Assembly: GCA_015055545.1 (NCBI GenBank)
Contig: SVHY01000012.1
Span: forward strand, 1 to 49,111
Origin: Clostridiales bacterium
GTDB taxonomy: Bacteria; Bacillota; Clostridia; Christensenellales; Borkfalkiaceae
Direction: 5' to 3'
Length of the DNA stretch: 49,111 nucleotides
Part shown: positions 8,502 through 25,344 of the stretch, piece by piece
Layout of the letters: each line of letters begins with the position of its first letter
Position numbering within the stretch: position 1 is the stretch's first letter
The notes under the pieces: model-generated
Seen by the model: only the letters and a program-made list of their open reading frames with translations
Told to the model about the DNA's origin: nothing
Database searches by the model: none
Position numbers and translations under genes: made by a program

Positions 8502-9239
8502 TTAATAGATAAATTTAATATCCCGTCCGTCCAGATTTTTCGGGGGTGCGCCGTCCGTTACGACAAAGTCGTACGATTCTAACGACGTCAACCGATACGC
8601 CCCGTGCGCGTCGAATTTCGTGCCGTCGATAAGCAGAATTCGTTTTAACGAGCGTTCAAACGCGGCACGCTTAATTTCCTTTTGGTCGAGAGAACGCTCG
8701 TACGCGTGCCCGTCGATAACCGCCGCGCACGAAGAAATCATTAAATCGAACTTGAAATCTTCCAACTGCCTTGCCGTCCAGCTGCCCGTTGCGGAAATGG
8801 TGTTGTATTGCACCATACCGCCCAGCATAACCAGCGTTACGTTCGGTTTTTTGGAAAGCTGAATTGCCGTTTGCAAGTTGTTCGTCACCACCGTTTTATG
8901 GCTGAAATCCATACGCTCGGCAAGCGCCAAAACGGTGGAAGAGCTGTCAATAAACACCGATTTGAAAGGGGGAATATGAGGCAACGCTTTCGTCGCCGCG
9001 CGCTCCTTTTCTTGCGCGTTTTTTTCCATACGGAAAAAGATAGAGATTTCTTCGCTGTTTTCAGGGAGCAGCGCGCCGCCGTGATTGCGTTCGACAAGCC
9101 CCATGCCGTTCATCTCCGATAAATCGCGTCGAATCGTCGCTTCGCTGACGTAAAACAGCTTTGCCAGCTCGTTTACGTTTGCCTTTTTTTGCTCTTTTAA
9201 GATGCGTAAAATTTCGTTTTGCCGTTCGTTTAATGCCAT
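8502..9239 (-). CDS. DeoR-family transcriptional repressor, probable regulator of the rhamnose/microcompartment operon
   Basis: The 245-residue protein has the DeoR-type N-terminal winged helix (LNERQNEILRILKEQ, then SEATIRRDLSEM as recognition helix, residues 1-57) and the C-terminal DeoRC sugar-phosphate sensor domain with conserved IDSSSTVLALAE and NNLQTA segments. Its start has GGAGTAGG upstream. It is divergent from rhaB, and the shared 231-bp region has two back-to-back promoters and two near-identical operator-like sites, one over its own promoter and one over the rha promoter. The simplest reading is an autoregulated repressor of the operon released by a rhamnose-derived phosphorylated intermediate; the effector is inference. 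Confidence 0.88.
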   Translation of the reverse strand: MALNERQNEILRILKEQKKANVNELAKLFYVSEATIRRDLSEMNGMGLVERNHGGALLPENSEEISIFFRMEKNAQEKERAATKALPHIPPFKSVFIDSSSTVLALAERMDFSHKTVVTNNLQTAIQLSKKPNVTLVMLGGMVQYNTISATGSWTARQLEDFKFDLMISSCAAVIDGHAYERSLDQKEIKRAAFERSLKRILLIDGTKFDAHGAYRLTSLESYDFVVTDGAPPKNLDGRDIKFIY

Positions 9240-9470: not shown

Positions 9471-10853
9471 ATGAAATATTATCTTGCTATCGATATCGGG
9501 GCGTCTTCGGGAAGACATATCGTTGCCTATTTGGAAAACGGCAAAATGGTCACCGAGGAGATATACCGTTTCCAAAACGGCCCCGTCAGCCAAATTGCCT
9601 ACGACGGAAAAGAACATCTCGTTTGGGAAGCGGAACGTTTGTATACGGAAATCCTGAACGGTTTAAAAAAGGCAGGGGAACTTGGCAAAGCGCCGTATGC
9701 AATCGGTATCGACACGTGGGGCGTTGATTACGCGCTTCTCGACGAAAACGATAAGGCAATCGGCGGCGTGTATTGTTATCGCGATTCGAGAACGGACGAA
9801 ACGATTGATAAAGTGCACGAAATTCTCCCGTTTGAAAAATTGTACGCAAAGACGGGTATTCAATTCTCGACGTTCAACAGTGTGTACCAATTCTATCACG
9901 ACAAAATGACGGGACGTATGGCGAACGCGAAATCGATGTTGATGCTTCCCGATTATTTCAACTTCCGTTTGACGGGCGTGAAAAAGCAAGAATACACCAA
10001 CGCCACGACGACGGGTATGGTGAACGCGATTACACACGAGTGGGATGAGGAGATTATTGAAAAGCTCGGTTACAATAAAGAAATCTTTGGGGAACTGACG
10101 CAACCGGGCAGCGTCGTAGGGGAACTCACCGACGAAGTTGCCTCGTTCGTAGGATACAAGGCGTTGGTGATGTTGCCTGCAACGCACGATACGGCAAGCG
10201 CGGTGTTGGCGGCTCCGCTTTCGGGACAAACCCCGTACATATCCAGCGGCACGTGGTCGCTGCTCGGGGTAGAACAAAACGCGGCGCATACGGACAAAGC
10301 GGCGATGGAAGTGGGCTATTCCAACGAGGGCAGCGTCAATAAGACGTTCCGTTTCCAAATCAACATTATGGGGCTTTGGATGATTCAGCAAGTCCGTCAC
10401 GAATTGGAAGATAAATACAGTTTTGCGCAACTTGCGCAAATGGCAAAGGAAAACCCCGTAGATATCGAAATCAACGTAAACGACCAAACGTTCTTTGCTC
10501 CTAAGAGTATGATAGGCGCAATCAACGAGGCGGCGGGAAGAGAGTTGTCCGTTGGCGAAATGGCGTACGTGATTTATAAGAACTTGGCAAGATGTTACGA
10601 TTCTTCGCTGAAAGCTTTGGAAGACGTTACGGGGGAAAAATACGACACGCTGAACATTATCGGCGGCGGCAGCCAAAACAAACTTTTGAACGCGCTCACG
10701 AAAGAGCATACGGGCAAGAAAGTTATCGCGGGGCCTGCGGAAGGTACGGCAATCGGTAACTTAATGATGCAAATGGTAGGTTTGGGCGACGTAGAAAACG
10801 TGGCGGCAGGCAGAGAAATTATTAAAAACTCGTTTGACATTTACGAAGTGTAA
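9471..10853 (+). CDS. rhaB: Rhamnulokinase
   Basis: It phosphorylates L-rhamnulose to L-rhamnulose-1-phosphate with ATP in the cytoplasm. The 460-residue FGGY-family kinase starts with DIGASSGRHIVAYL, the ATP/phosphate motif characteristic of rhamnulokinases, has GIDTWGVDYALLD, PATHDTASAVL, SSGTWSLLG and NIIGGGSQN in family order, and AGPAEGTAIGN near the end. The start has AGAGAGG seven bases upstream. It is the first gene of the operon and is followed after 45 bases by rhamnose isomerase. Fuculokinase is the near alternative, but the adjacent isomerase settles the sugar as rhamnose. Confidence 0.93.
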   Translation: MKYYLAIDIGASSGRHIVAYLENGKMVTEEIYRFQNGPVSQIAYDGKEHLVWEAERLYTEILNGLKKAGELGKAPYAIGIDTWGVDYALLDENDKAIGGVYCYRDSRTDETIDKVHEILPFEKLYAKTGIQFSTFNSVYQFYHDKMTGRMANAKSMLMLPDYFNFRLTGVKKQEYTNATTTGMVNAITHEWDEEIIEKLGYNKEIFGELTQPGSVVGELTDEVASFVGYKALVMLPATHDTASAVLAAPLSGQTPYISSGTWSLLGVEQNAAHTDKAAMEVGYSNEGSVNKTFRFQINIMGLWMIQQVRHELEDKYSFAQLAQMAKENPVDIEINVNDQTFFAPKSMIGAINEAAGRELSVGEMAYVIYKNLARCYDSSLKALEDVTGEKYDTLNIIGGGSQNKLLNALTKEHTGKKVIAGPAEGTAIGNLMMQMVGLGDVENVAAGREIIKNSFDIYEV

Positions 10854-12146: not shown

Positions 12147-13337
12147 GTGAAGATTTTGGTTGTAAACGCAGGTAGCTCTTCGCTCAAATACCAGTTGTTC
12201 GATATGGACACGAACACGGCGATTGCGAAAGGCAACTGCGAAAGAATCGGCATTGACGGCGTGGTAACGCATAAATGCCCCGGTAAAGAAGATTACAAAA
12301 CACAGGCGGATTTCCCCGACCATCGCGCCGCAATCGAGTGTGTGCTTGGGTTACTCACCGATAAAAAACTTGGCGTAATCGGCAGCGTAAAAGAAATTGC
12401 GGCGGTAGGGCACAGATTCGCGCACGGCGGTGAAAAACTCCGCGCGTCGGCGGTGCTTGGCGCAGACGAGATTGCGTATCTTGAAAGCATTGTAGAGCTC
12501 AACCCTTTGCACGGGCCTCCCGCAATCAGCGGTTTTAAGGCTTGTAAAGAAGTTATGCCCGACATCAAACACGTAGGTGTATTCGATACGTCGTATTATT
12601 CTAATATGGAAGAACACGCGTATATCTATCCTATCCCTTACGAATTGTATGAAGAGTACAAAATCCGTCGTTACGGTTTCCACGGCACGTCGCATAGATA
12701 CGTTGCGGCAAAAGCTGCGGAAATGTTAGGGAAAAAGGACGCGAAGATTATCACCTGTCACCTGGGCAACGGTTCGTCGATAACGGCGACGGTAAACGGA
12801 AAGGCGATTGATACGTCGATGGGCTTTACCCCCCAAGACGGCGTGCCTATGGGTACGCGTAGCGGCGCGCTTGACCCTACCGTGCCTATGTATATAATGA
12901 AGAAAAAAGGTTTGACGGCAGAACAGACGGAAAAACTTTTAAACAATCAATCGGGCTTGCTCGGCGTATCCGGTATATCCAGCGATTGCCGTGACGTAGC
13001 CGGCGCGGCAGCGGAAGGCAATGCGAGGGCGGCGCTTGCTTTGAAAATCTTGGCGCACAACATCAAGAAGATAATCGGCTCGTATATCGCGGAAATGAAC
13101 GGCGTAGACGCGGTGGTGTTTACGGCAGGTATCGGTGAAAACGATAGGGCGATGAGAGAACGCGTTTGCGAAGGACTGGATTGGCTTGGCATTGCGATTG
13201 ATAAAGAAATCAATAACACCTGCGATAGGGGCGTGGACGTAGACATCAGCGCGAAGGGCGCGAAGGTAAAGACGTTCGTTATCCCTACCAACGAAGAGTA
13301 TATGATTGCTCTCGACACACAAAACTTGACAAAATAA
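12147..13337 (+). CDS. ackA: Acetate kinase family protein, likely acting as propionate kinase
   Basis: It transfers phosphate between an acyl phosphate and ADP to make ATP. The 396-residue length and the motifs NAGSSSLKYQL, RRYGFHGTSHRYV, HLGNGSSIT and FTAGIGEND are those of acetate kinase. The gene begins with GTG behind AGAGAGG and is tightly packed after rhaA. In Pdu-type pathways a dedicated kinase (PduW) converts propionyl-phosphate to propionate, and acetate kinases accept propionyl-phosphate; in this operon that is the expected job, downstream of PduL. No encapsulation peptide is visible, so it should work in the cytoplasm, where ATP is needed. Confidence 0.9.
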   Translation: MKILVVNAGSSSLKYQLFDMDTNTAIAKGNCERIGIDGVVTHKCPGKEDYKTQADFPDHRAAIECVLGLLTDKKLGVIGSVKEIAAVGHRFAHGGEKLRASAVLGADEIAYLESIVELNPLHGPPAISGFKACKEVMPDIKHVGVFDTSYYSNMEEHAYIYPIPYELYEEYKIRRYGFHGTSHRYVAAKAAEMLGKKDAKIITCHLGNGSSITATVNGKAIDTSMGFTPQDGVPMGTRSGALDPTVPMYIMKKKGLTAEQTEKLLNNQSGLLGVSGISSDCRDVAGAAAEGNARAALALKILAHNIKKIIGSYIAEMNGVDAVVFTAGIGENDRAMRERVCEGLDWLGIAIDKEINNTCDRGVDVDISAKGAKVKTFVIPTNEEYMIALDTQNLTK

Positions 13338-13379: not shown

Positions 13380-14129
13380 ATGAAATCCCCATTCGAGATT
13401 AAGAAGGAAATTTGCGAAGTTGGGCTTAAGCTCTGGCAAAAAGGTTTCGTTGCTGCAAACGACGGTAATATCTCCGTAAAAATTAGCGACAACGAATTCT
13501 ACTGCACCCCTACGGGTGTATCGAAAGCGTCCTTGACGCCTGATATGATTATCAAAGTGGACAAAGACGGCAAGAAATTGGAAGGTAAACTTAACCCTTC
13601 GTCCGAAATCAAGATGCATATGAGAGTGTATCGCGAACGTCCTGACGTTACGGCAGTTGTGCACGCACACCCTCCCGTTGCTACGGCGTTCACCGTTGCG
13701 GATATCGACCTTGACCAATACGTACTTCCCGAAGCAGTATTGACGATTGGCGCTGTACCTACCTGCGATTACGGTACGCCTTCCACGATGGAAATTCCCG
13801 ATTCGCTTGACCCGTATCTTCAAAACCACGACGCGTTCTTGCTTCGTAACCACGGCGCTTTGACGGTTGGTTGCAACCTTACGAAAGCTTTCTTCGTAAT
13901 GGAAGAAGTTGAATTCAACGCCGTTATCTGCAAGCACGCTATGGACCTTGGCGCAGTACACGAAATTTCTTGCGACCAACTCAAAAAGCTTATGGATTTG
14001 AGAAAGAAGATGAACTTGCCCGGACGTCACCCCGGTATCGAATGTGAAGAAGAATCTTGCGGCTGCGGCGCGAACGCAGAACTCGTAGAAGCAATCACGA
14101 AGAAAGTACTTGCAGCGCTCGGCAAATAA
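13380..14129 (+). CDS. Microcompartment class II aldolase (rhamnulose/fuculose-1-phosphate aldolase)
   Basis: It cleaves L-rhamnulose-1-phosphate (or L-fuculose-1-phosphate) to DHAP and L-lactaldehyde. The 249-residue zinc enzyme belongs to the FucA/AraD class II aldolase family: GNIS at 29-32, the catalytic Glu76 in SSEIKMH, His95 and His97 in VHAHPP and His158 in RNHGAL. Its sequence is FucA-like rather than like enterobacterial RhaD, but the context with rhaB and rhaA points to rhamnulose-1-phosphate. After the catalytic domain a cysteine-rich linker (ESCGCG) leads to an amphipathic helix (AELVEAITKKVLAALGK) with the look of a C-terminal encapsulation peptide, so the cleavage probably happens inside the shell. 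AAAGGAG precedes the ATG. Confidence 0.88.
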   Translation: MKSPFEIKKEICEVGLKLWQKGFVAANDGNISVKISDNEFYCTPTGVSKASLTPDMIIKVDKDGKKLEGKLNPSSEIKMHMRVYRERPDVTAVVHAHPPVATAFTVADIDLDQYVLPEAVLTIGAVPTCDYGTPSTMEIPDSLDPYLQNHDAFLLRNHGALTVGCNLTKAFFVMEEVEFNAVICKHAMDLGAVHEISCDQLKKLMDLRKKMNLPGRHPGIECEEESCGCGANAELVEAITKKVLAALGK

Positions 14130-14130
14130 G

Positions 14131-14180
14131 AAAGTGATATTTTGACTTTGTCAAATTTCACTTTTACGCACGGCGTAAAA
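14131..14180 (+). other. Two consecutive hairpins between aldolase and aldehyde dehydrogenase genes
   Basis: AAAGTGA (14131-14137) pairs with TCACTTT (14158-14164), extended inside by further paired bases down to GAC/GTC around a TTT loop. Directly after, TTTTACGC (14162-14169) pairs with GCGTAAAA (14173-14180) over a 3-base loop. The two structures share bases 14162-14164 and so may be alternatives. No long U-run follows, so mRNA processing or stability control is likelier than termination. Confidence 0.55.
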
Positions 14181-14213
14181 ACTTCACTCAATAGACGTAA
14201 AGGAGAAAAAGCT

Positions 14214-15671
14214 ATGGCAATCAATTGGACGGAAGCCCAAATCGAGCAGGTAATTGCGCAAGTGATTAACAATCTCGGCGGCGCGGCTTCCACCGTAAGA
14301 AACGATTGGGATTCGACGCAATATAACGGTCGTAAACTTATCGGTATTTACGCGGACATGAACGACGCTATCGACGCGGCGACGGCTGGCTATAAAGCTA
14401 TCCGCGCGATGTCGTTGGAAGAAAGAGAAAAGGTTATCGCGAAAGTCCGTGAATTGTGCCGTAAGGAAGCGCCGATTATGGCAAAGCTTGGCGTAGCGGA
14501 AACGAAGATGGGACGCGTAGAACATAAAACCGCGAAACATATCCTCGTTGCCGATAAAACGCCCGGTACGGCTGATATCGTTGCGCAAGTAAAAACGGGT
14601 GACTACGGTTTGACGCTCACGGAAATGGCGCCTTTTGGCGTAGTGGGCAGCATCACCCCCAGTACCAATCCTTCGGAAACGGTTATTTGTAACAGTATTG
14701 GTATGATTGCGGCAGGGAACGGCGTGGTATTCAACCCGCACCCCAACGCAATTGCAACGTCCAACTACGCGGTAGATTTAATCAACCGCGCCAGCGCGGC
14801 GGCGGGCGGCCCTAACGTCCTCGTTGCGTCGGTGGTAAAACCCACGTTGGACACGGCTCAAATTATGTACAAGCACCCCAATATCCGCTTGCTCGTATGT
14901 ACGGGCGGCCCCGGGGTTGTAAGAAGCGTGCTTTCCAGCGGTAAGAAGGCAATCGGCGCGGGCGCGGGTAACCCTCCCGTAATCGTAGACGATACGGCTG
15001 ATATCCGCAAAGCAGCAAAAGATATTATCGACGGTTGTACGTTTGACAACAACTTGCCTTGTATCGCGGAAAAAGAAGTGTTTGCGTTTAAGAACATTGC
15101 AGACCAACTCATTTCCGAAATGCAAAATAACGGCGCGTATATGATTACGCCCGAACAAGCTGGCAAACTTGCAAATATCGTACTCGTAGATAGCAAAAAT
15201 CCCAAGACGGGGATTGTGAAAAAGACTGTCAGCCGCGATTGCGTAGGACGTGACGCAGCGGTATTGCTTGAAAAAATCGGCGTAAAAGTAGGCGGTGATA
15301 TCCGTTGTATCATCTGCGAAACGGGCTTTGACCATCCTTTCGTACAACACGAATTGATGATGCCTATTTTGCCTATCGTACGCGTAAACGATATCGACCA
15401 AGCAATCGATTTGGCAGTAAAAGCGGAACACGGTAATAGACATACGGCGCATATGCACTCGAAGAATATCGACCATTTGACGAGATTTGCGCGTGCGGTA
15501 GAAACGACGATTTTCGTCAAGAACGCACCCTCGTATGCAGGTATTGGTTTTGGCGGCGAAGGTCATACGACGTTCACCATCGCAGGGCCTACGGGCGAAG
15601 GCTTAACCAGCGCGCGTAGCTTTACGAGATTCCGCCGTTGCGTACTTAGCGAAAGTTTCCGCATTATTTAA
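14214..15671 (+). CDS. pduP: CoA-acylating propionaldehyde dehydrogenase with N-terminal encapsulation peptide
   Basis: It oxidises propionaldehyde with NAD+ and CoA to propionyl-CoA inside the microcompartment. The start at 14214 is set by AAAGGAG; the frame extends 24 codons upstream through the hairpin region without a ribosome site. The 485-residue protein has the PduP/EutE-type aldehyde dehydrogenase fold: FGVVGSITPSTNP, LVCTGGPG and GAGAGNPPVIVD, with the catalytic Cys283 in FDNNLPCIAEKE. The first 22 residues (TEAQIEQVIAQVINNLGG) form an amphipathic helix typical of PduP targeting peptides, followed by a short linker. Neighbours on both sides carry similar tags. Confidence 0.92.
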   Translation: MAINWTEAQIEQVIAQVINNLGGAASTVRNDWDSTQYNGRKLIGIYADMNDAIDAATAGYKAIRAMSLEEREKVIAKVRELCRKEAPIMAKLGVAETKMGRVEHKTAKHILVADKTPGTADIVAQVKTGDYGLTLTEMAPFGVVGSITPSTNPSETVICNSIGMIAAGNGVVFNPHPNAIATSNYAVDLINRASAAAGGPNVLVASVVKPTLDTAQIMYKHPNIRLLVCTGGPGVVRSVLSSGKKAIGAGAGNPPVIVDDTADIRKAAKDIIDGCTFDNNLPCIAEKEVFAFKNIADQLISEMQNNGAYMITPEQAGKLANIVLVDSKNPKTGIVKKTVSRDCVGRDAAVLLEKIGVKVGGDIRCIICETGFDHPFVQHELMMPILPIVRVNDIDQAIDLAVKAEHGNRHTAHMHSKNIDHLTRFARAVETTIFVKNAPSYAGIGFGGEGHTTFTIAGPTGEGLTSARSFTRFRRCVLSESFRII

Positions 15672-15693: not shown

Positions 15694-16902
15694 ATGGATA
15701 TTACATCTTCTCAAGTAGAGAGTATCGTTCGTAAAATCCTTGGCGAAATGGGCGGCGCAAAGTCCTCTTGTGGCGGTGCGGCTGGTAAAATCCCCAAGAC
15801 GGCGAAGGTAGCGATGCTCACGGCGCAAAAGAAAATCGAAGTAAAAGAATTCGCTATTCCTGCGTTGACGGACGACGACATCCTTGTAAAGGTAGAAGGT
15901 TGCGGCGTTTGCGGCACGGACGTACACGAATGGAAAGCTGACCCGTTCGGGATTATTCCCGTAACGCTCGGCCACGAAGGTACGGGTGAAATCGTTTACC
16001 TCGGTAAAAACATTAAAGCGGATACGTCGGGCAAGCCTATTAAAGTGGGCGATAAACTCGTAACCAGCGTTATCAGCTGTGGCGAGTGTCACGTTTGCCG
16101 CAATCATCCTGCAAACACCAACCTTTGCGATAAGCAAGGCGTGTTCGGGTTGATTCCCCACAGCAATGCAAACCCGTTCACGGGTTGGTTCGCAGAATAT
16201 TTGCTGATTCGCGGTAAAGGTTCTACGTACTTCGTTGTAAACGACTTGAACTTGAAGGAAAGAATGATTCTCGAACTCGCTTGCGTATGCGTACACGCAT
16301 TGAAGAGAGCGCAAACGACGGGGCTTATCAATTTCAATTCGAAAGTGCTTATCCAAGGTCTTGGTCCCGTAGGTTTGGTTATGATTAGCGTGCTTCGCGC
16401 TGCTGGTATCAACCACATCATCGCCATCGACGGCACGCCGATGCGTTTGGAAATGGCTAAAAAGCTCGGTGCGAAGACAATTGTCAATTTCCGTGAAATG
16501 ACGACGTTGGAAGAAAGAGTGAAATACGTCAAGAGCGTAGCTAACGGCGTTGGCGCAGACTTTGCGTTCCAATGCACGGGCGCACCTGCGGCGGCGAAAG
16601 ATATTTTCGAATATATTCGTCGTGGCGGCGGTCTTTGCGAAATGGGCTTCTTCGTAAACAACGGCGAATATAACGTAAATCCCCACTTTGCTATGTGTAA
16701 TAAAGAAATCAACCTCGTTGGTTCTTGGGATTACAGCGCGGACGATTATCCTACGACGATGGCGTTCCTTCGTCAAGCAAGAGAAATGAAGATTCCCGTA
16801 TGCGATTTGATTACGCACGAATATCCTCTTGACCAACTCAACGAAGCGATGGAAACGAACGTAGCGCAAAAGGGCATCAAAATTTGTTACGTTGCGAAAT
16901 AA
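15694..16902 (+). CDS. Zinc-dependent medium-chain alcohol dehydrogenase with N-terminal encapsulation peptide
   Basis: It is predicted to interconvert an aldehyde and alcohol with NAD(H) inside the shell: lactaldehyde to 1,2-propanediol, propionaldehyde to propanol, or both. The 402-residue MDR-family protein has GCGVCGTDVHEW and GHEGTGEIV (catalytic zinc region), four structural-zinc cysteines in CGECHVCRNHPANTNLC and the Rossmann motif GLGPVGLV. Residues 1-21 (SSQVESIVRKILGEMGG) are an amphipathic helix, followed by a Gly/Ala/Cys linker, that looks like an encapsulation peptide. The usual Pdu enzyme (PduQ) is an unrelated iron-type dehydrogenase, so this is an alternative solution to NADH recycling. 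A GGAG site overlaps the region just upstream. Confidence 0.88.
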   Translation: MDITSSQVESIVRKILGEMGGAKSSCGGAAGKIPKTAKVAMLTAQKKIEVKEFAIPALTDDDILVKVEGCGVCGTDVHEWKADPFGIIPVTLGHEGTGEIVYLGKNIKADTSGKPIKVGDKLVTSVISCGECHVCRNHPANTNLCDKQGVFGLIPHSNANPFTGWFAEYLLIRGKGSTYFVVNDLNLKERMILELACVCVHALKRAQTTGLINFNSKVLIQGLGPVGLVMISVLRAAGINHIIAIDGTPMRLEMAKKLGAKTIVNFREMTTLEERVKYVKSVANGVGADFAFQCTGAPAAAKDIFEYIRRGGGLCEMGFFVNNGEYNVNPHFAMCNKEINLVGSWDYSADDYPTTMAFLRQAREMKIPVCDLITHEYPLDQLNEAMETNVAQKGIKICYVAK

Positions 16903-16921: not shown

Positions 16922-17239
16922 ATGGCACTTGGTATGATAGAAGTGTTCGGCTTCGCTACCGCTATCGTAGTTGCCGATAAAATGGCGAAAGCTGCCGACG
17001 TAGAAGTGGTGGCAATCGATAAGAACAAACCTGCGGCGGGGGATTCCGCGCGCGTGCCTTTGGTTATGGCAATCAAAGTAGAAGGCAGCGCGGCGGCGGT
17101 AGAAGCGTCCGTACAAGCAGGGAAGGAAGAAGCCGAAAAACGTGGCTTGTATATTACGCATAAAGTAATTGCAAGACAAAGTGAAGATATCGAGTGGTTT
17201 GCTCGTTTGAGCGCACTTGGTAAAGATAAATTAAGATAA
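16922..17239 (+). CDS. BMC-H shell protein 1 (extended form)
   Basis: A single BMC domain, 105 residues, that would form hexameric shell tiles. It opens GMIEVFGFATAIVVADKMAKAADVEV, the standard first helix-strand unit, and carries HKVIARQSEDIEW at the end. It is 15 residues longer than the next three shell proteins and has a distinctive pore-side loop (DKNKPAAGDSARVPL), so it may make a hexamer with a different pore. GAAGGAG lies 10 bases before the ATG. First of four tandem BMC-H genes. Confidence 0.9.
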   Translation: MALGMIEVFGFATAIVVADKMAKAADVEVVAIDKNKPAAGDSARVPLVMAIKVEGSAAAVEASVQAGKEEAEKRGLYITHKVIARQSEDIEWFARLSALGKDKLR

Positions 17240-17280: not shown

Positions 17281-17556
17281 ATGATGGAAGCATTAGGCAT
17301 GGTTGAAACGAGAGGTTTGGTAGCAGCGATTGAAGCAGCGGATGCAATGGTAAAGGCAGCAAACGTTGTACTTATCGGCAGCGAAAAAATCGGCAGCGGT
17401 TTGGTAAGCGTTATGGTTCGCGGTGACGTTGGCGCAGTTAAGGCAGCGGTAGAAGCTGGCAGCGCAGCAGCTACGGCTCTTGGCGAAGTTATCGCTACGC
17501 ACGTAATCCCCAGACCTCACGCAGACGTTGAAAAACTTCTTCCCGCTATCAAATAA
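17281..17556 (+). CDS. BMC-H shell protein 2, major type (identical protein to the copy at 17947)
   Basis: A canonical 90/91-residue PduA/PduJ-like hexameric shell protein with [19 protein letters not shown], the pore motif region [12 protein letters not shown] and a C-terminal [14 protein letters not shown]. The ATG at 17281 is followed directly by a second ATG at 17284, which is the start that matches the paralogue; AAGGAG at 17265-17270 could serve either. From 17284 on the protein is identical to that of 17947-18219 at all 90 residues, while the DNA differs at 20 positions, all synonymous. Confidence 0.95.
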
Positions 17557-17606: not shown

Positions 17607-17879
17607 ATGAAAGCAATAGCGTTACTCGAAGTGCAAGCAATGGTGGCGGCAATCACCGGGCTTGACGCGATGGTAAAGGCGGCGGACGTAAAGCTTATTC
17701 ACGTAGAAAAGCGTCTTGGCGGCAGATTGGTAACGGTCGTCGTTGAAGGCGAGGTATCGGCTTGCCAGGCGGCGCTTCAAGCAGGCGCAGCCGCGGCGGC
17801 AGAGGTAGGCAACGTAAAAGTGTGTGAAGTGATTGCACGTCCGCACCCCGACGTTATGCGTTTCTTAACGACGGGTTAA
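17607..17879 (+). CDS. BMC-H shell protein 3 (divergent paralogue)
   Basis: A 90-residue single-BMC-domain protein ([19 protein letters not shown] at the start, [17 protein letters not shown] at the end) that would form hexamers. It differs from its two flanking twins in the pore loop, reading [13 protein letters not shown] where they have [12 protein letters not shown], so an arginine-bearing pore with different selectivity is likely. AAGGAG lies nine bases before the ATG. It separates the two identical BMC-H genes. Confidence 0.93.
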
Positions 17880-17946: not shown

Positions 17947-18219
17947 ATGGAAGCATTAGGTATGGTTGAAACGAGAGGTCTCGTAGCAGCAATCGAAGCG
18001 GCAGATGCTATGGTAAAGGCGGCTAACGTCGTACTTATCGGTAGCGAAAAAATCGGTAGCGGTTTGGTAAGCGTTATGGTTCGTGGCGACGTTGGCGCAG
18101 TTAAGGCAGCTGTAGAAGCTGGCAGCGCAGCGGCTACGGCACTTGGCGAAGTTATCGCTACGCACGTAATCCCCAGACCGCACGCAGACGTTGAAAAACT
18201 TCTTCCCGCTATTAAATAA
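17947..18219 (+). CDS. BMC-H shell protein 4 (identical protein to the copy at 17281)
   Basis: A 90-residue canonical hexameric shell protein, same amino-acid sequence as residues 2-91 of the product of 17281-17556. The start has a full AGGAGG nine bases upstream, a stronger ribosome site than its twin's. A short hairpin AAAACT-GCAA-AGTTTT (17889-17904) lies in the 67-base AT-rich gap before it. It is the last gene before the internal terminator at 18241, so it and the other shell genes can be made in excess over the rest of the operon. Confidence 0.95.
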
Positions 18220-18284: not shown

Positions 18285-18327
18285 CAATCGCATAAATGCG
18301 GCAAAAAAAGCGTAAAACGGCTTAAAG

Positions 18328-18453
18328 TAGGGGTATTTTACGCAAAAATAGGGGCAATTTGCCCTAAAATAGGGGTATTTTACGCAAAAATAGGGGCAAT
18401 TTGCCCTAAAATAGGGGTATTCTACCCAAAAATACGGGTATTTCGCCCAAAAT
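18328..18453. repeat. Six tandem 21-bp palindromic repeats
   Basis: Units begin at 18328, 18349, 18370, 18391, 18412 and 18433. Units 1 and 3 are identical, units 2 and 4 are identical, and 5 and 6 are diverged relatives. Each unit holds a short dyad: GGGCAATTTGCCC is a perfect 13-bp palindrome in units 2 and 4, GGGTATTCTACCC is perfect in unit 5, and the others are imperfect. The 21-bp period equals two helical turns. The array fills the gap between the internal terminator and pduL. Confidence 0.95.
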
Positions 18454-18490: not shown

Positions 18491-19156
18491 ATGGAAATTT
18501 CAAGTGCAAAAATTGCAGAAATGGTTAAAAAAGTGCTCGCGGATATGAACGGCGATACGGTTGGCCAAAGCGTAGGCGCGGCAAACGAAGTGCCTATCGG
18601 CGTATCGAATAGACATATTCATTTAAACAAAGCGGATTTAGAAACGCTTTTTGGCGCAGGATACGAACTCACGCCGATGAAAGATTTGTCGCAACCGGGA
18701 CAATACGCTTGCAAAGAAACGTTGACGCTTATCGGGCCTGCGATGCGTCCTATTGAAGGCGTGCGCGTGTTAGGGCCGCTTCGTAAAAATTCGCAAGTGG
18801 AAATTTCTATGACCGATTCTTACGTGTTAAAGGTAAAACCGCCCGTAAGAGAATCGGGCAATATCGTCGGTTCGGCAGGCGTAACGATTATCGGGCCGAA
18901 AGGGGTAGTACAATTAAAAGAAGGTTGTATTATTGCCAATAGACATATCCATATGTCGCCCAGCGACGGGGAAAAGTTCAACGTGAAAGACGGCGAAACG
19001 GTGACGGTGGACGTAGAAGGCAAACGCCGTACGAGATGGTACGACGTGCAGGTACGCGTGCATCCCGATTTCCGTTTGGAAATGCACGTAGATACGGATG
19101 ACGCCAACGCCGCAGGGATTGGCAACGGCTTTAAAGTAAAGGTCGTTAAGGAGTAA
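18491..19156 (+). CDS. pduL: Phosphate propanoyltransferase PduL with N-terminal encapsulation peptide
   Basis: It converts propionyl-CoA and phosphate to propionyl-phosphate and free CoA, recycling CoA within the shell. The 221-residue protein has the two PduL repeats with their zinc-ligand histidines: VPIGVSNRHIHLNKADL near residue 35 and ANRHIHMSPSD near residue 155. Residues 1-20 (SSAKIAEMVKKVLADMNG) form an amphipathic helix like the targeting tags of the aldehyde and alcohol dehydrogenases. The ATG has GGAAGG upstream, just after the 21-bp repeat array. Four bases separate its stop from the BMC-P gene. Confidence 0.95.
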   Translation: MEISSAKIAEMVKKVLADMNGDTVGQSVGAANEVPIGVSNRHIHLNKADLETLFGAGYELTPMKDLSQPGQYACKETLTLIGPAMRPIEGVRVLGPLRKNSQVEISMTDSYVLKVKPPVRESGNIVGSAGVTIIGPKGVVQLKEGCIIANRHIHMSPSDGEKFNVKDGETVTVDVEGKRRTRWYDVQVRVHPDFRLEMHVDTDDANAAGIGNGFKVKVVKE

Positions 19157-19160
19157 TAAA

Positions 19161-19409
19161 GTGTTAAAAGGAATCATTAGAGGAAACGTAGTTTCCACAA
19201 GAAAACAAGAATCGCTCGTCGGCTCGAAATTTATGGAAGTAGAAGTCATTGAAAACAACGCGTTGACGGGGAAATTTCTTATTGCGGTAGATAGCGTCGG
19301 CGCAGGTATCGGTGAAACGGTACTCGTTACGACGGGTAGTTCGGCAAGACTTGCGTTACATAATACAAACGCGCCTTGCGATGCGGTAATCGTCGGTATT
19401 GTCGATTAG
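19161..19409 (+). CDS. eutN: BMC-P (EutN/CcmL-type) pentameric vertex protein
   Basis: An 82-residue protein of the EutN/CcmL family, which forms the pentamers that cap the corners of the shell. It starts with GTG and matches from KGIIRGNVVSTRKQESLVGSK through FLIAVDSVGAGIGETVLVTTGSSAR to CDAVIVGIVD. AAGGAG at 19148-19153 serves it. It is the only pentamer gene in the operon. The 138 bases after it up to the next gene hold a GC-rich CGCGCG-containing hairpin (19507-19529) but no clear terminator. Confidence 0.95.
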   Translation: MLKGIIRGNVVSTRKQESLVGSKFMEVEVIENNALTGKFLIAVDSVGAGIGETVLVTTGSSARLALHNTNAPCDAVIVGIVD

Positions 19410-19547: not shown

Positions 19548-20870
19548 ATGGATTTGAAAACAATTATGAAAGAAGCAGGTATCGTCGGCGCAGGTGGCGC
19601 AGGCTTTCCCTCGTATGCAAAACTTGCAGACGGGGCGGATACGCTTGTCATCAACGGCGCGGAATGCGAACCGTTGCTGTATACCGACTACGTGCTTTTA
19701 CATAAAGAACTGCCAATGGTTTTGGCAGGTATACAATCGGTGCTGGAATACGCGAAAATTCCACGCGCCTTACTTTGCGTGAAAGAACACACCGCAAAAC
19801 GTTTGCACCTTGTAGACGGCACTCGTTTGGCGGATAAAATCACGTTAAAAACGTTGCCCGACGTATATCCTATGGGCGACGAAATCGCAATGATTTATCA
19901 AGCCACGGGCAGGGTGGTAAAAGCCGGGAATTTGCCTATTACGGCAGGCGTTATCGTATACAACGTAGAAACGATGTACAACGTGGCAAGGGCGGTGAAA
20001 TATAACGAACCGCTTACGGAAAAATGGTTGACGATAGCAGGGGATATTCCCGAAGCCATCGTTGTCAAAGTGCCCGTTGGTACGCCCGTATGGGAATTAT
20101 TTGAAAAGAATCATATCGTAGTTTCCGATAATTACACGGTGCTTGACGGCGGTCCGTCGATGGGGAAAGTGATTGACGTGGAAACGGCGGTGGTTACCAA
20201 GACGACGAAAGGGCTGTTGGTATTGCCGAACACTTGCGAGGCAGTTGCTTCCAAATTCGTCAACGGCGCGTTGTCGATTGCGCGTGCGGAAACGGCGTGT
20301 TGCCAATGTACCCGTTGTACGGATATGTGCCCTAGGCATTTGCTTGGGTATCCTATCGAGCCGCATAAAATGGTACGTACGGCGAAAGGCGCGGCGACGA
20401 TTTTGCCGCAAATGGTGCTTTCCGCATCCCTTTGTTGCGGTTGCGGCGTGTGTGAATCGCTTGCGTGCTGTCAGGGTATTTCCCCGAAGGCGGTAATTAA
20501 CGAATATAAGGCGTTGCTTGCGAAAAATAAGCTCCGTTACGTGGCAAAGGAAGAGAGCGTGGTTGCCCCTGAAAGAGAGTATCGTATGGTGCCTTCTCAG
20601 CGTTGGGAACACATCCTTGGTATTGCCAAATTTGACAAACTTGCCAAATACGTAGGCGAGCAAAAGGATTTCAAACGCGCGGAAATATACCTTCGTCAAC
20701 ACATCGGCGCGCCCAGCGTAGCGATTGTAAAAGAAGGGGACGTAGTACAAAAAGGCGATAAAATTGCCGAGAGCGCGGACGGGCTTTCCCTGCCGCAATA
20801 TGCTTCCGTATCAGGCAGAGTGATGATGGTGGAAGGTGTAAAAATAATTATTGAAAAGGATAGCGAATAA
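19548..20870 (+). CDS. pduS: PduS/RnfC-like flavo-iron-sulfur protein
   Basis: A 440-residue RnfC-related protein: an N-terminal Gly-rich nucleotide/flavin motif (GIVGAGGAGFPSYAKL), an SLBB-like domain around 160-200, then two ferredoxin-type cluster motifs, C251-x2-C254-x2-C257-x3-C261 and C296-x2-C299-x2-C302-x4-C307, and a C-terminal barrel-sandwich part. In B12-dependent Pdu systems PduS reduces cobalamin; this pathway has no B12 step, so here it more likely passes electrons between NADH in the lumen and the outside, through the iron-sulfur shell protein encoded next. The ribosome site is weak (TAGG eight bases upstream); a GGAGG at 19512 lies too far up and within a possible hairpin. Confidence 0.85.
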   Translation: MDLKTIMKEAGIVGAGGAGFPSYAKLADGADTLVINGAECEPLLYTDYVLLHKELPMVLAGIQSVLEYAKIPRALLCVKEHTAKRLHLVDGTRLADKITLKTLPDVYPMGDEIAMIYQATGRVVKAGNLPITAGVIVYNVETMYNVARAVKYNEPLTEKWLTIAGDIPEAIVVKVPVGTPVWELFEKNHIVVSDNYTVLDGGPSMGKVIDVETAVVTKTTKGLLVLPNTCEAVASKFVNGALSIARAETACCQCTRCTDMCPRHLLGYPIEPHKMVRTAKGAATILPQMVLSASLCCGCGVCESLACCQGISPKAVINEYKALLAKNKLRYVAKEESVVAPEREYRMVPSQRWEHILGIAKFDKLAKYVGEQKDFKRAEIYLRQHIGAPSVAIVKEGDVVQKGDKIAESADGLSLPQYASVSGRVMMVEGVKIIIEKDSE

Positions 20871-21415
20871 TGTTTAAGTCGATTGGTGTAATAGAACTCA
20901 AAAGCGTACCCAAGGGTGTAGAAGCAACGGACGCCGCGTTAAAGAGCGCAGGCGTAGAAATGGTTGCCGCGCATCCTGCTTGTCCCGGGAAATACGAAAT
21001 TATTTTAACCGGCTCGATTTCCAACGTTACGGCGTCGGTAGACCACGTCGTTGAGAAATTCGGCAGTTACGTAATTGATTCGTCTATAATGGGCAGAATC
21101 GACGAACAGGTAATTACGGCGTTGTTTGGCACGCAACAAGGCGTAAAGAAAGGCTCGCTTGGGCTTATCGAAACGTTTTCCGCGGCGACGACCATTAAAG
21201 CGGCGGATATCGCGGTGAAGACGGCGCGCGTAGATATTTACGATTTGCGCGTATCGCGCGGTATGGGCGGCAAAGGCGTCGTACTGTTAACCGGTGAAGT
21301 TGGGGACGTTACGGCGGCGGTAGAGGCAGGCTCTTCCTACGCAAAACAATCGGGGCAACTTTCTTCCAACGCAGTAATCGCAGCGCCCCACGAAGAACTT
21401 TGGAATCAATTATAA
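20870..21415 (+). CDS. pduT: PduT-like tandem-domain (BMC-T) shell protein
   Basis: A 181-residue protein with two BMC domains in tandem (GVIELKSVPKGVEATDAAL, then GLIETFSAATTIKAADIAV), forming pseudohexameric trimers. Cys38 in HPACPG falls at the position where PduT proteins hold a [4Fe-4S] cluster in the central pore, so an electron-conducting pore is likely. Its ATG overlaps the TAA of the PduS-like gene by one base, which suggests translational coupling and physical pairing of the two products. Confidence 0.92.
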   Translation: MFKSIGVIELKSVPKGVEATDAALKSAGVEMVAAHPACPGKYEIILTGSISNVTASVDHVVEKFGSYVIDSSIMGRIDEQVITALFGTQQGVKKGSLGLIETFSAATTIKAADIAVKTARVDIYDLRVSRGMGGKGVVLLTGEVGDVTAAVEAGSSYAKQSGQLSSNAVIAAPHEELWNQL

Positions 21416-21477: not shown

Positions 21478-24009
21478 ATGGAAAACATTAAATTCGTAAT
21501 AGAAAAGAGCGCGAGAATTGACAAGCTTGTCGATGCGTTGTATGCGAAAATGCCGGAGATTGAATCGGCGCGTGGCATACTCGTTACCGAAAGCTATAAG
21601 CAGACGGAAGCTTTGCCGATTATCCGTCGTCGCAGCGCGGCTTTCAAACATATTTTGGAGAATTTGCCTATCGTTATTCGTGACAACGAACTGATTGTAG
21701 GCGCGCCTACGGTTGCGCCCCGCGGTTGTCAAGTTTTCCCCGAATACTCTTACGAGTGGTTAGAGGCGGAATTCGACACGGTAGCAACCCGTGCTGCCGA
21801 CCCGTTTTATATCAGCGAAAAGACGAAGGAAGATTTGCGTAAAGCGTATCCCTATTGGAAAGGCAAAACGTGCAGCGATTTAGCAAAAGCGAATATGGCG
21901 CCCGAGGCGTATGAAGCGTTTACCGTGCACGGTATTTTCACGCCCGGTAACTATTTCTATAACGGCATCGGACACGTAAACGTGCAATACGATAAAGTGT
22001 TGAAAAAAGGGTATCGCGGCATTATGGCGGAAGCGCAAGCGGCGCTGGATAAATTGGACGTATCCGACGGCGACTTTGTGCCCAGAAGCAATTTCCTTTA
22101 TGCGGTAATCGAAAGTTGCGAGGCGGTTATCCACTACGCAAGAAGATACGCGGCGCTCGCTCGCGATATGGCGAAAAAGGAAAAGGACGCTACGCGTAAA
22201 GCGGAACTTGAAAAGATTTCCGCAAACTGCGCGAGAGTGCCCGAATTCCCTGCCACCTCCTTCCACGAAGCTTGCCAATCCTTCTGGTTCGTGCAAATGC
22301 TTTTGCAAGTGGAATCGAGCGGTCACTCCATTTCCCCCGGTAGATTCGACCAATATATGTATCCCTATTACAAGAAAGATATCGACGAGGGCAAACTGAC
22401 GAAAGAGCAAGCCCAAGAACTTATCGATTGTATCTGGGTTAAACTTAACGATATTAACAAAGTCCGTGACGCGGTATCTGCGGACGGATTTGCAGGCTAC
22501 GGTATGTTCCAAAACCTTATCGTAGGCGGCCAAGATATTCACGGTTTAGACGCCACCAACGATTTGTCGTATATGTGTTTGGAGGCGGCTATGCACGTAC
22601 CTTTGCCCCAGCCTTCTATCTCTATCCGCGTATGGAACGGCTCGCCCGAATCGTTGCTGGTAAAGGCGGCGGCGTTGACAAGACTGGGCACGGGCTTGCC
22701 TGCGTATTATAACGACGAAGTGATGATTCCTTCCATTATGGCAAGGGGGCTTTCGTTGGAAGACGCGAGAGATTATTGTATCATCGGTTGCGTAGAACCG
22801 CAAAAGGGCGGTAAGACGGACGGTTGGCACGACGCGGCGTTCTTTAATATGTGCCGTCCTATGGAACTCGTTTTCTCCAACGGTATGGATAAAGGCGTAA
22901 AAATCGGGCCTGATACGGGCGACGTTGCGGAAATGAAGACGTTTGAAGAAGTGTATAACGCCTACAAAACGCAACAGAGTTATTTCATCAAACTGCTCGT
23001 AAACGCAAACAACGCCATTGACGCGGCGCACGCGACGCGTTGTCCGCTTCCCTTCCAATCCTGTATGGTAGACGATTGTATCGCACGCGGTAAATCGTTG
23101 CAAGAGGGTGGCGCTATCTATAATTTCACGGGCCCGCAAGGCTTTGGTATTGCCAACAATACGGACGGCTTGCTTGCCATTAAACAGCTTGTATTTGAAG
23201 AAAAGAAAGTGACGATGGCGGAACTGCGTGAGGCGATGAACGCAAACTTTGGTTACGGGTTTACGGGCGCAGCGGCGGAACGCATTACCAACGACATCGT
23301 GCAACAGCTGGCAAATAGCGGCATTGAAGTCACGGAAAGCGTTATCCGTACGGTGTACGAAGAAGTTACGACGGGGAACGCCATTGACCCTGAAAAGAAA
23401 GCGCGTTATCGCGAAATCAAACGTTTGATAGACGAAACGTGCCCTAAATACGGCAACGATATTTTCGAGGCGGATATGTTTGCGCGCGACGTTGCCAATA
23501 CGTACACGAAAGAAGTAGAAAAATATAAAAACTACCGTGGCGGTATTTTCCAAGCGGGATTGTATCCCGTTTCGGCAAACGTACCCCTTGGCGGACAAAC
23601 GGGCGCAACGCCCGATGGCAGACTCGCCTTTACGCCCATTGCCGACGGTATCGGCCCTGCGTCGGGTAGAGATGTGAAAGGCCCTACGGCGACGGCAAAC
23701 TCGGTGGCAAAACTGGAACAAGGCGTTGCAAGTAACGGTACGCTTTTGAACCAAAAATTCCATCCTTCCGCGCTTGCAGGCATGTCGGGCTTGACGAAAT
23801 TCGTTGCGCTGATTCGCTCGTATTTCGACCAAAAGGGTATGCATATGCAGTTCAACGTCGTCACGCGTGAAACGCTGTTGGATGCGCAAAAGAACCCCGA
23901 GAAATATAAGACGCTCGTCGTGCGCGTGGCTGGGTATAGCGCGCTGTTCACGACGCTCTCCCGTTCGTTGCAAGACGATATTATCAATAGAACCGAACAA
24001 GGTTTCTAA
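21478..24009 (+). CDS. B12-independent 1,2-propanediol dehydratase (glycyl radical enzyme)
   Basis: It dehydrates 1,2-propanediol to propionaldehyde by glycyl/thiyl radical chemistry inside the microcompartment. The 843-residue length is normal for the family. The active-site loop reads IIGCVEPQ with the thiyl Cys438 and catalytic Glu440, the pattern of diol/glycerol dehydratases. Near the C-terminus RVAGYSALFTTLS holds the glycyl radical residue, Gly819. No extra targeting helix is obvious at either end. Close alternatives are glycerol dehydratase and choline lyase; the aldolase, rhamnose genes and PduP/PduL neighbours favour propanediol. AAGGTGG precedes the ATG, and its activase follows 54 bases downstream. 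Confidence 0.93.
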   Translation: MENIKFVIEKSARIDKLVDALYAKMPEIESARGILVTESYKQTEALPIIRRRSAAFKHILENLPIVIRDNELIVGAPTVAPRGCQVFPEYSYEWLEAEFDTVATRAADPFYISEKTKEDLRKAYPYWKGKTCSDLAKANMAPEAYEAFTVHGIFTPGNYFYNGIGHVNVQYDKVLKKGYRGIMAEAQAALDKLDVSDGDFVPRSNFLYAVIESCEAVIHYARRYAALARDMAKKEKDATRKAELEKISANCARVPEFPATSFHEACQSFWFVQMLLQVESSGHSISPGRFDQYMYPYYKKDIDEGKLTKEQAQELIDCIWVKLNDINKVRDAVSADGFAGYGMFQNLIVGGQDIHGLDATNDLSYMCLEAAMHVPLPQPSISIRVWNGSPESLLVKAAALTRLGTGLPAYYNDEVMIPSIMARGLSLEDARDYCIIGCVEPQKGGKTDGWHDAAFFNMCRPMELVFSNGMDKGVKIGPDTGDVAEMKTFEEVYNAYKTQQSYFIKLLVNANNAIDAAHATRCPLPFQSCMVDDCIARGKSLQEGGAIYNFTGPQGFGIANNTDGLLAIKQLVFEEKKVTMAELREAMNANFGYGFTGAAAERITNDIVQQLANSGIEVTESVIRTVYEEVTTGNAIDPEKKARYREIKRLIDETCPKYGNDIFEADMFARDVANTYTKEVEKYKNYRGGIFQAGLYPVSANVPLGGQTGATPDGRLAFTPIADGIGPASGRDVKGPTATANSVAKLEQGVASNGTLLNQKFHPSALAGMSGLTKFVALIRSYFDQKGMHMQFNVVTRETLLDAQKNPEKYKTLVVRVAGYSALFTTLSRSLQDDIINRTEQGF

Positions 24010-24063: not shown

Positions 24064-24852
24064 ATGAGCATTTACGACACCAAAGGAAGAATATTCAATA
24101 TTCAGCGGTTCTCCATCCACGACGGACGGGGAATCCGCACTATCGTATTCTTCAAAGGCTGTTTTATGCGTTGTGCGTGGTGTTGCAATCCCGAATCGCA
24201 GGAATATAAAATTCAAACGATGATGGAAAACGGCAAGGAAAAAATCGTTGGCAAAGACGTCACGGTAGGGGAGATAATGCCCGAAATCCTTGCAGATATC
24301 CAATATTACCGCAGAAGTGGCGGCGGCGTAACGCTCTCAGGCGGCGAAATTCTCGCTCAGCCGGAATTTGCGCGCGATTTACTCCGCGCGTGCAAACAAA
24401 ACGGTTTGCATACCGCCGTGGAATCGACGGGCAATGCAGAATTTGAAACGATACAAGCCATTTTGCCCTATCTCGATTTGTATTTGATGGACATCAAGCA
24501 TATGGATACGGCAAAGCATAGAGAGTATACGCGGGCTGGGAACGAACTGATTTTAGAGAACGCTAAAAAGATAGCGCAAAGCGGTGAGGTGGAATTGATT
24601 ATCCGCACCCCCGTCGTGCCGACGTTCAACGATACGGCGGAAGAAATCCGCGCGATTGCGAAATTTGCCGCGACGCTCCCTGGGGTAAAAGAACATCACT
24701 TGTTGCCCTATCATAGATTGGGACAAGATAAATACGCGGGGTTGGATAGAAATTATTCGCTGAAAGAAATCGAGCCGCCCAGCAAAGAAAAGATGGAATA
24801 CCTCTTATCGGTGGCGGAAGAAAGCGGTTTGCATTGCCAAATCGGCGGCTGA
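24064..24852 (+). CDS. Glycyl-radical enzyme activase (radical SAM)
   Basis: It uses S-adenosylmethionine and a [4Fe-4S] cluster to place the radical on the glycine of the dehydratase. The 262-residue protein has the radical SAM motif C33-x3-C37-x2-C40 in GCFMRCAWCCNPE, the GGE motif in LSGGEILAQPEF and DIKHMD further on. The two-cluster ferredoxin insert that follows the SAM motif in many glycyl-radical activases (glycerol dehydratase, CutD and HpdA types) is missing, so it resembles the short PflA form. AAAGGA lies upstream of the ATG. Confidence 0.92.
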   Translation: MSIYDTKGRIFNIQRFSIHDGRGIRTIVFFKGCFMRCAWCCNPESQEYKIQTMMENGKEKIVGKDVTVGEIMPEILADIQYYRRSGGGVTLSGGEILAQPEFARDLLRACKQNGLHTAVESTGNAEFETIQAILPYLDLYLMDIKHMDTAKHREYTRAGNELILENAKKIAQSGEVELIIRTPVVPTFNDTAEEIRAIAKFAATLPGVKEHHLLPYHRLGQDKYAGLDRNYSLKEIEPPSKEKMEYLLSVAEESGLHCQIGG

Positions 24853-24984: not shown

Positions 24985-25344
24985 ATGGAACTCAAAGACA
25001 AAATGACAATTATTCAGGAATTCGTTCCTGGTAAACAAATCACCCTTTGTCACATCATTGCCAACCCCGGGGAAACGTTGTACACGAAACTCGGGTTAGA
25101 CCCCCAAACCGATTACACGAAAAGCGCCATTGGCGTTTTAACGGTTATCCCTTACGAAAGCGCGGTTATCGCGGCAGATATAGCGATGAAGGCTTCGGGC
25201 GCGGAAATCGGGTTCGTGGATAGATTTACGGGTACGCTTATCATCACGGGTACGGTTTCGTCCGTAGAGGCGGCTTTCGTGGCGATAAGAGAATATTGCA
25301 TCAACAAGCTCGGGTACGCTTGTTGCGAATTGACGAAGACCTAA
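24985..25344 (+). CDS. pduU: PduU/EutS-like circularly permuted BMC-H shell protein
   Basis: A 119-residue shell protein. The N-terminal part (IIQEFVPGKQITLCHIIANP) is the extension that forms the small beta-barrel plug over the hexamer pore in PduU and EutS, and the BMC fold follows in permuted order (AIGVLTVIPYESAVIAADIAMKA, then GTLIITGTVSSVEAAF). The ATG has CAGGAGA seven bases upstream. It is followed after five bases by the PduV/EutP-like GTPase, the usual partner: PduV is reported to bind PduU. Confidence 0.9.
   Translation: MELKDKMTIIQEFVPGKQITLCHIIANPGETLYTKLGLDPQTDYTKSAIGVLTVIPYESAVIAADIAMKASGAEIGFVDRFTGTLIITGTVSSVEAAFVAIREYCINKLGYACCELTKT

Follow-up and report, generated by a model that had tools for sequence, protein, structure and literature searches.

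The class II aldolase of a GRM5-type locus bears a C-terminal tail resembling an encapsulation peptide

Introduction

How can an aldolase microcompartment whose shell is thought to retain lactaldehyde and propionaldehyde still admit a C6 sugar phosphate and release dihydroxyacetone phosphate (DHAP)? The locus described here, which lies in a stretch of 49,111 nucleotides (the window), raises this question, as a class II aldolase gene is found in it together with genes for shell proteins and cargo enzymes. A sequence-only reading of this DNA had proposed that the aldolase ends in a helix of the encapsulation type and cleaves its sugar phosphate inside the shell. Such a tail would indicate which step must be inside, and a BMC-H protein with an arginine in its loop narrows the question of the pore to a single residue.

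In our main reading, to which we assign a probability of roughly 0.87, the aldolase is a GRM5 cargo enzyme that cleaves rhamnulose-1-phosphate. This compound would be supplied by RhaA and RhaB, whose genes head the operon; the catalytic domain would split it into DHAP and lactaldehyde, and a loose linker with a terminal helix would dock the enzyme to the helices of other cargo enzymes, to the shell's inner face, or to both. For the aldolase, computation shows the fold, the catalytic residues, the terminal helix, the similarity of this helix to those of other cargo and its co-occurrence with shell genes.

Gene content of the locus

By its genes the locus is classed as a GRM5-type (fucose/rhamnose) glycyl-radical microcompartment locus (Table 1). 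A glycyl radical 1,2-propanediol dehydratase with an internal insertion of about 60 residues, as is characteristic of GRM5, is present by sequence, its activity being a prediction. The enzyme matches 5i2a, the diol dehydratase of R. inulinivorans, with 1201.7 bits in a single uninterrupted alignment, residues 8-842, which takes in the region of the insertion; with 30 of the 36 other listed PDB sequences the best alignment stops at 591-594. GRM5 is also characterized by an activating enzyme that lacks the ferredoxin insertion; that of the locus has 262 residues and, at the level of Pfam domains, matches to Radical_SAM and Fer4_12 only. Moreover, the locus contains the combination of a pfam00596 aldolase with a pfam00107/08240 alcohol dehydrogenase, which is given as a mark of GRM5 in the accessible part of PMC6325248. 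PduS and PduT, which also belong to GRM5, are recognized by their domains and the CPGKY motif, while their scores stay below the NCBIfam cut-offs (eut_PduT 109 of 250 bits, rnfC 211.5 of 245.95 bits).

Table 1. Positions of the features in the window.
Feature	Coordinates	Strand	Remarks
DeoR-family regulator	8502..9239	-	
Rhamnulokinase RhaB	9471..10853	+	best model TIGR02627, 477.6 bits, below cut-off 527.95
L-rhamnose isomerase RhaA	10899..12143	+	
Acetate/propionate kinase	12147..13337	+	
Class II aldolase ORF	13380-14129	+	ATG start, 249 residues, stop; boundaries exact
Class II aldolase domain, FucA-like	13380..14033	+	residues 1-218; E76/H95/H97/H158
Aldolase linker	14034..14069	+	GIECEEESCGCG, three Cys, residues 219-230 (12 residues)
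Aldolase C-terminal encapsulation-type helix	14070..14126	+	ANAELVEAITKKVLAALGK, residues 231-249 (19 residues)
N-terminal EP-like helix of aldehyde dehydrogenase	14214..14282	+	likely start 14214, within ORF 14142-15671
N-terminal EP-like helix of zinc alcohol dehydrogenase	15694..15756	+	gene 15694-16902, candidate lactaldehyde reductase
BMC-H 1	16922..17239	+	long loop in pore region
BMC-H 2	17281..17556	+	PduA-like loop KIGSG
BMC-H 3	17607..17879	+	loop EKRLGGRL at 17706-17729, Arg40 codon 17724-17726
BMC-H 4	17947..18219	+	protein equals BMC-H 2 except for one first Met
N-terminal EP-like helix of PduL phosphotransacylase	18491..18556	+	gene 18491-19156
BMC-P vertex protein (EutN/CcmL)	19161..19409	+	
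PduS-like (RnfC-like) protein	19548..20870	+	Complex1_51K/RnfC_N
PduT-like BMC-T	20870..21415	+	double BMC protein, CPGKY motif
Glycyl radical enzyme	21478..24009	+	like R. inulinivorans diol dehydratase
Activating enzyme of glycyl radical enzyme	24064..24852	+	
BMC-H 5	24985..25344	+	EutS/PduU type

As far as the available text of the sources goes, the GRM5 loci of C. phytofermentans (about Cphy_1174-1183) and Roseburia inulinivorans have in common with the window the 5i2a-type glycyl radical enzyme, its activase and the class II aldolase, as well as zinc alcohol dehydrogenase, aldehyde dehydrogenase, PduL, PduS, PduT, BMC-H proteins and a DeoR regulator. The window differs from them in that rhaB, rhaA and an acetate kinase gene are joined to the locus and in that its genome contains a separate RhaD operon. 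PduV and ParA-like genes follow at the 3' end of the locus, behind the EutS/PduU-type BMC-H; according to the part of PMC3557285 that was available, PduV is also found in R. inulinivorans but not in C. phytofermentans.

In C. phytofermentans polyhedral bodies are induced by fucose or rhamnose (PMC6325248, accessible text), and in published models of GRM5 the fuculose/rhamnulose-phosphate aldolase is placed inside the shell or has its gene in the BMC locus (PMC6325248, review by Ferlez et al.; PMC3557285, Petit et al.; both in part). Since encapsulation of the GRM5 aldolase is already in print, the core of the finding is known in kind; what had been observed in the window holds, and the interpretation put on it is partly supported and mostly published in kind already. 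The available part of the BMC catalogue PMC8217296 states a C-terminal encapsulation peptide (EP) for the pfam00596 aldolase of ACI loci and lists the same kind of aldolase for PVM and GRM5; a sentence stating such an EP for GRM5 itself was not found in the accessible portions of PMC8217296, PMC6325248 and PMC3557285. ACI and PVM loci thus share the aldolase with the window, but no glycyl radical enzyme is mentioned for them in these portions, and PVM is described as aerobic.

The aldolase and its C-terminal tail

The aldolase matches Pfam Aldolase_II with 163 bits. Glu76, His95, His97 and His158, taken earlier for the FucA catalytic residues, lie at these very positions, pair with the E, H, H and H of E. 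coli FucA in the alignment to 1dzw and are invariant across an alignment of 63 aldolase sequences. An AlphaFold2 model with a mean pLDDT of 93 has the FucA fold, and its top Foldseek matches are FucA, YgbL and an aldolase of B. thuringiensis (E about 1e-18, TM 0.89-0.91 by target length), with Z values of 26-28 over about 205 residues in VIA-align. The enzyme scores below the NCBIfam cut-offs for L-fuculose-1-phosphate aldolase (TIGR01086 97.6 of 400.25 bits, NF005302 107.3 of 264 bits) and likewise for RhaD (NF002963, 56.7 of 170 bits). It is therefore a class II aldolase with FucA fold outside the TIGR01086 and NF005302 equivalogs, and as both the FucA and the RhaD cut-offs are missed, no family assignment tells which substrate it uses. 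The L-fuculose-1-phosphate aldolase of E. coli (1fua) has the same fold and catalytic residues, but is about 29% identical and, with 215 residues, lacks a C-terminal extension.

Beyond the catalytic domain the protein does continue, as had been claimed, with a Cys-containing linker and a helix (residues 219-249). AlphaFold2 places the helix at residues 232-247 (block means of pLDDT 80 and 92) and models the preceding linker block less confidently (61). The tail has in this model the build of an EP, a terminal helix of some 15-20 residues behind a flexible linker. By its hydrophobic moment alone, the measure taken of the amphipathicity expected of an EP, the helix is not set apart (0.29, p = 0.20 against shuffles), and p falls below 0.05 in 38 of 95 aldolase tails across the family. 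When the window was compared with L073-L087 (16 sequences in all), pN/pS came to 0.11 for the domain, 0.49 for the linker and 0.34 for the helix, and gaps fill 0.1%, 14.8% and 0% of the alignment cells, respectively. The helix is under stronger constraint than the linker and under weaker constraint than the domain.

Likeness to the helices of other cargo enzymes

Does the tail resemble the helices of the other cargo enzymes? A position profile was built from 33 dereplicated orthologue tails, leaving out the window and L060, and scanned over the 39,317 19-mers of the ORFs of the window only. The aldolase tail itself ranks first (45.7). PduL (15.3) and the alcohol dehydrogenase (7.8) come second and third with their N-termini, the glycyl radical enzyme fourth and fifth with two internal segments (4.9 and 3.7), and the aldehyde dehydrogenase sixth, again with its N-terminus (3.2). 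The maxima of 20 shuffles range from 1.9 to 14.0, so that the PduL score alone exceeds all of them and the two dehydrogenases fall within the range. That all three cargo N-termini stand among the first six is in our judgement probably not chance, the shuffles serving as a control for the scores. The supposed likeness of the aldolase helix to other cargo helices is in keeping with this result.

The tail most likely packs the enzyme into the organelle, as judged from its looks and its evolution, both those of an EP. It is possible, if the less favoured view, that it acts mainly as a cargo-to-cargo coalescence helix, which would build up the enzyme core by bundling with the EPs on PduL and on the two dehydrogenases, and that the shell is recruited by other cargo. 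The resemblance in sequence would be expected from such bundling, and EPs are able to assemble into trimeric bundles and into condensates (PMC12339742, accessible part); on the other hand, the groove where shell tiles adjoin has also been given as a site of EPs (PMC11157265, accessible part). The two roles are not mutually exclusive, and the present data do not separate them. Docking to cargo helices and/or to the shell, as the main reading has it, would accommodate both.

Distribution of the tail

The occurrence of the tail was compared in 110 aldolases among the matches listed, namely that of the window, 29 from its order and 80 from named loci; from the 121 stretches at hand L042, which encodes RhaD and gave no match, the truncated L043 and the nine rows L044-L052 with less than 150 bits were left out. 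With 25 residues as the minimum for a tail, and shell genes counted when they lay within the fetched stretch, which often ended with the contig, 76 of these aldolases have tail and shell gene, 19 a tail only, none a shell gene only and 15 neither. Because some of the genomes may belong to the same species, the set was dereplicated at 85%, leaving 59 aldolases that divide in the same order into 34, 12, 0 and 13. L060, in which the reading frame is broken close to the end, counts among the 76 but does not enter the tail profile, the Cys count or the tree. A tail not conserved in orthologues of other loci had been named beforehand as what would speak against the encapsulation idea; among the matches listed the tail is found in 76 of 76 shell-linked aldolases, the window included.

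For the 19 tailed aldolases without a shell gene in their stretch, a PF00936 search finds BMC genes elsewhere in the genome in 16 cases and none in the other three genomes, which are G031 (a single contig, 99% complete), G111 and G226. Conversely, 14 of the 15 tail-less aldolases are in genomes without a PF00936 match, a result that is weaker for several incomplete genomes; the exception, G022, has BMC genes, and reading beyond the stop of its aldolase in three frames found no tail-like sequence. Hence, apart from G031, G111, G226 and G022, the tail is present on BMC cargo and absent from homologues outside BMCs, as is typical of an EP. The tailed aldolase of the single-contig genome G031 (L072), in which no PF00936 match was found, possibly carries a relict EP. 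Tailed aldolases only weakly like that of the window (31-76 bits) also occur in four shell loci (L186, L187, L188 and L190) in whose stretches no glycyl radical enzyme was detected.

An unrooted tree of 59 aldolase domains (43 with tail and BMC, 12 with neither, 3 with tail only and 1 with BMC only) requires the tail label to change six times. Of five independent pairs taken from branches with good support, 3.7 go the same way, 0 the opposite way and 1.3 are undecided (median p 0.125), and the association of tail and BMC is therefore not significant by this test. Close tail-less relatives are found in genomes without a BMC match, L106 (71% identical), which adjoins an FGGY kinase gene, and L100 and L102 (73%), the latter adjoining an acetate kinase gene. 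These aldolases would have left the shell and lost the tail, a direction of change that the unrooted tree does not prove. Tail-less relatives in shell-less genomes could serve as natural controls for the function of the tail.

Substrate and a second rhamnose route

Which sugar phosphate would the aldolase cleave? With rhaB and rhaA at the head of the operon and no fucose isomerase domain (PF02952) found in the genome, which is 83% complete, rhamnose is the likely substrate, and rhamnulose-1-phosphate, proposed earlier, fits as the compound to be cleaved. A second rhamnose operon on another contig of the same genome (C10; L042:9514-14013, G000) contains DeoR, rhaB, rhaA and rhaD genes and parallels the head of the window operon. 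Its RhaD has 269 residues and no tail and scores 354.2 bits with NF002963 (cut-off 170). Since this tail-less enzyme comes with its own rhaB and rhaA, cleavage in the lumen need not be the sole route. Among 23 genomes searched for RhaD, nearly all with a related aldolase locus, full matches were found in the same genome and in G203 (83% identical) and a partial one (35%) in G207; with a full RhaD in just two of them, RhaD is not part of the standard system.

These observations bear on an alternative that we consider unlikely, namely that cytosolic RhaD is the main route for rhamnulose-1-phosphate, with the shell aldolase acting on a different sugar phosphate such as fuculose- or 5-deoxyribulose-1-phosphate. 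The second operon and the missed equivalog cut-offs would agree with such a division of labour, as would the top Foldseek match, the B. thuringiensis aldolase 6btd, linked by its title to the disposal of radical by-products; but the genes at the head of the window operon, the missing PF02952 and the rarity of RhaD argue against it. Cleavage of rhamnulose-1-phosphate by the aldolase of the window remains our preferred reading, and the organism may cleave this compound both in the cytosol and, as we infer, in the shell.

Cysteines of the linker

Cysteine makes up 168 of 1479 linker residues (11.4%) in 46 dereplicated tailed aldolases as compared with 222 of 10,947 domain residues (2.0%), and only three of the 46 linkers are without Cys. 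Such an enrichment is not shared by cargo linkers in general, as those of the other cargo enzymes contain 3.7% (alcohol dehydrogenase, 35 of 35 rows), 0.4% (aldehyde dehydrogenase, 37 of 37) and 2.9% (PduL, 19 of 24, the five rows without a recognizable helix being left out). The linker that had been called Cys-rich thus deserves the name in the window (three Cys in 12 residues) and in the wider family, but not in the 16 near orthologues, which have 0-2 Cys each and in four cases none. A conserved metal site in the linker was on these counts rejected for the clade of the window. The Cys richness of the aldolase linker is real and recurrent but does not mark a conserved site in this clade. In the AlphaFold2 model of L098 the linker, which has six Cys, is unfolded (block mean pLDDT 37), and this does not exclude a bound metal.

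That the linker rather than the helix is the functional part, binding metal or Fe-S in connection with the redox proteins PduS and PduT or with metal loading of the aldolase, is very improbable. The excess of Cys over the domains and the other cargo linkers would suggest it; against it stand the paucity of Cys in the near orthologues, the constraint on the linker, which is weaker than on domain or helix, its gaps, and the lack of a predicted fold in L098.

BMC-H proteins and a candidate pore

If the aldolase works in the lumen, through which shell protein would its substrate and product pass? Four types of BMC-H had been counted before, but two of the four clustered proteins are identical and a fifth, of the EutS/PduU type, is encoded at 24985. 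The genes of BMC-H 2, with its one extra first Met, and BMC-H 4 differ by 20 silent substitutions in 273 nucleotides. Among 63 loci that have at least two such genes, 11, with the window among them, contain an identical BMC-H pair when the first 85 residues are compared.

In BMC-H 3 the loop arginine aligns with the glycine directly behind the loop serine of PduA, a serine that we take to line the pore. Defined as [LIVM]G[SG]R with an aliphatic residue or Cys in the next position, the arginine loop is found, in loci with a tailed aldolase including the window, in 65 of 66 proteins of the BMC-H 3 class (L078 has Met), in 0 of 141 of the PduA-like BMC-H 2 class and in 0 of 71 of the BMC-H 1 class. 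Forty further stretches with a BMC-H 3-class protein were not an unbiased sample, as they were picked by likeness to BMC-H 3 (the first 24 for close, most others for weaker likeness). Of these, 22 have a tailed aldolase, 19 of them with the LGGR loop (not L205, L219 and L223); four have the loop and no aldolase, each ending at a contig end 0.9-5.1 kb upstream of BMC-H 3; and 14 have neither tailed aldolase nor LGGR loop, L225 among them having LGGK.

The sequence-only reading had guessed that BMC-H 1 or 3 lets the phosphates pass, and for BMC-H 3 the loop arginine lends circumstantial support. The proposal that BMC-H 3 is a dedicated sugar phosphate pore, in which LGGR would put six arginines at the pore of the hexamer and let rhamnulose-1-phosphate in and DHAP out, is offered tentatively. 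A basic pore next to an enzyme in need of sugar phosphate traffic may be a sensible proposal, and if it were true, BMC-H 3 would make luminal cleavage possible. Like this passage, the substrate of the aldolase, its location in the lumen and its binding to the shell are what we infer from the sequences. No paper on an arginine pore loop in GRM5 BMC-H proteins, or on Cys-rich linkers of BMC aldolases, was found in titles and the beginnings of abstracts, which is weak evidence as subscription papers were mostly missing.

Apart from these genes, two repeats are found in the window. Between BMC-H 4 and pduL (18323-18453) lies a tandem array with a 42-bp unit made of two alternating 21-bp halves, and at the start of the window (1-836) 57/114-bp tandem repeats code for a Cys-containing repeat protein.
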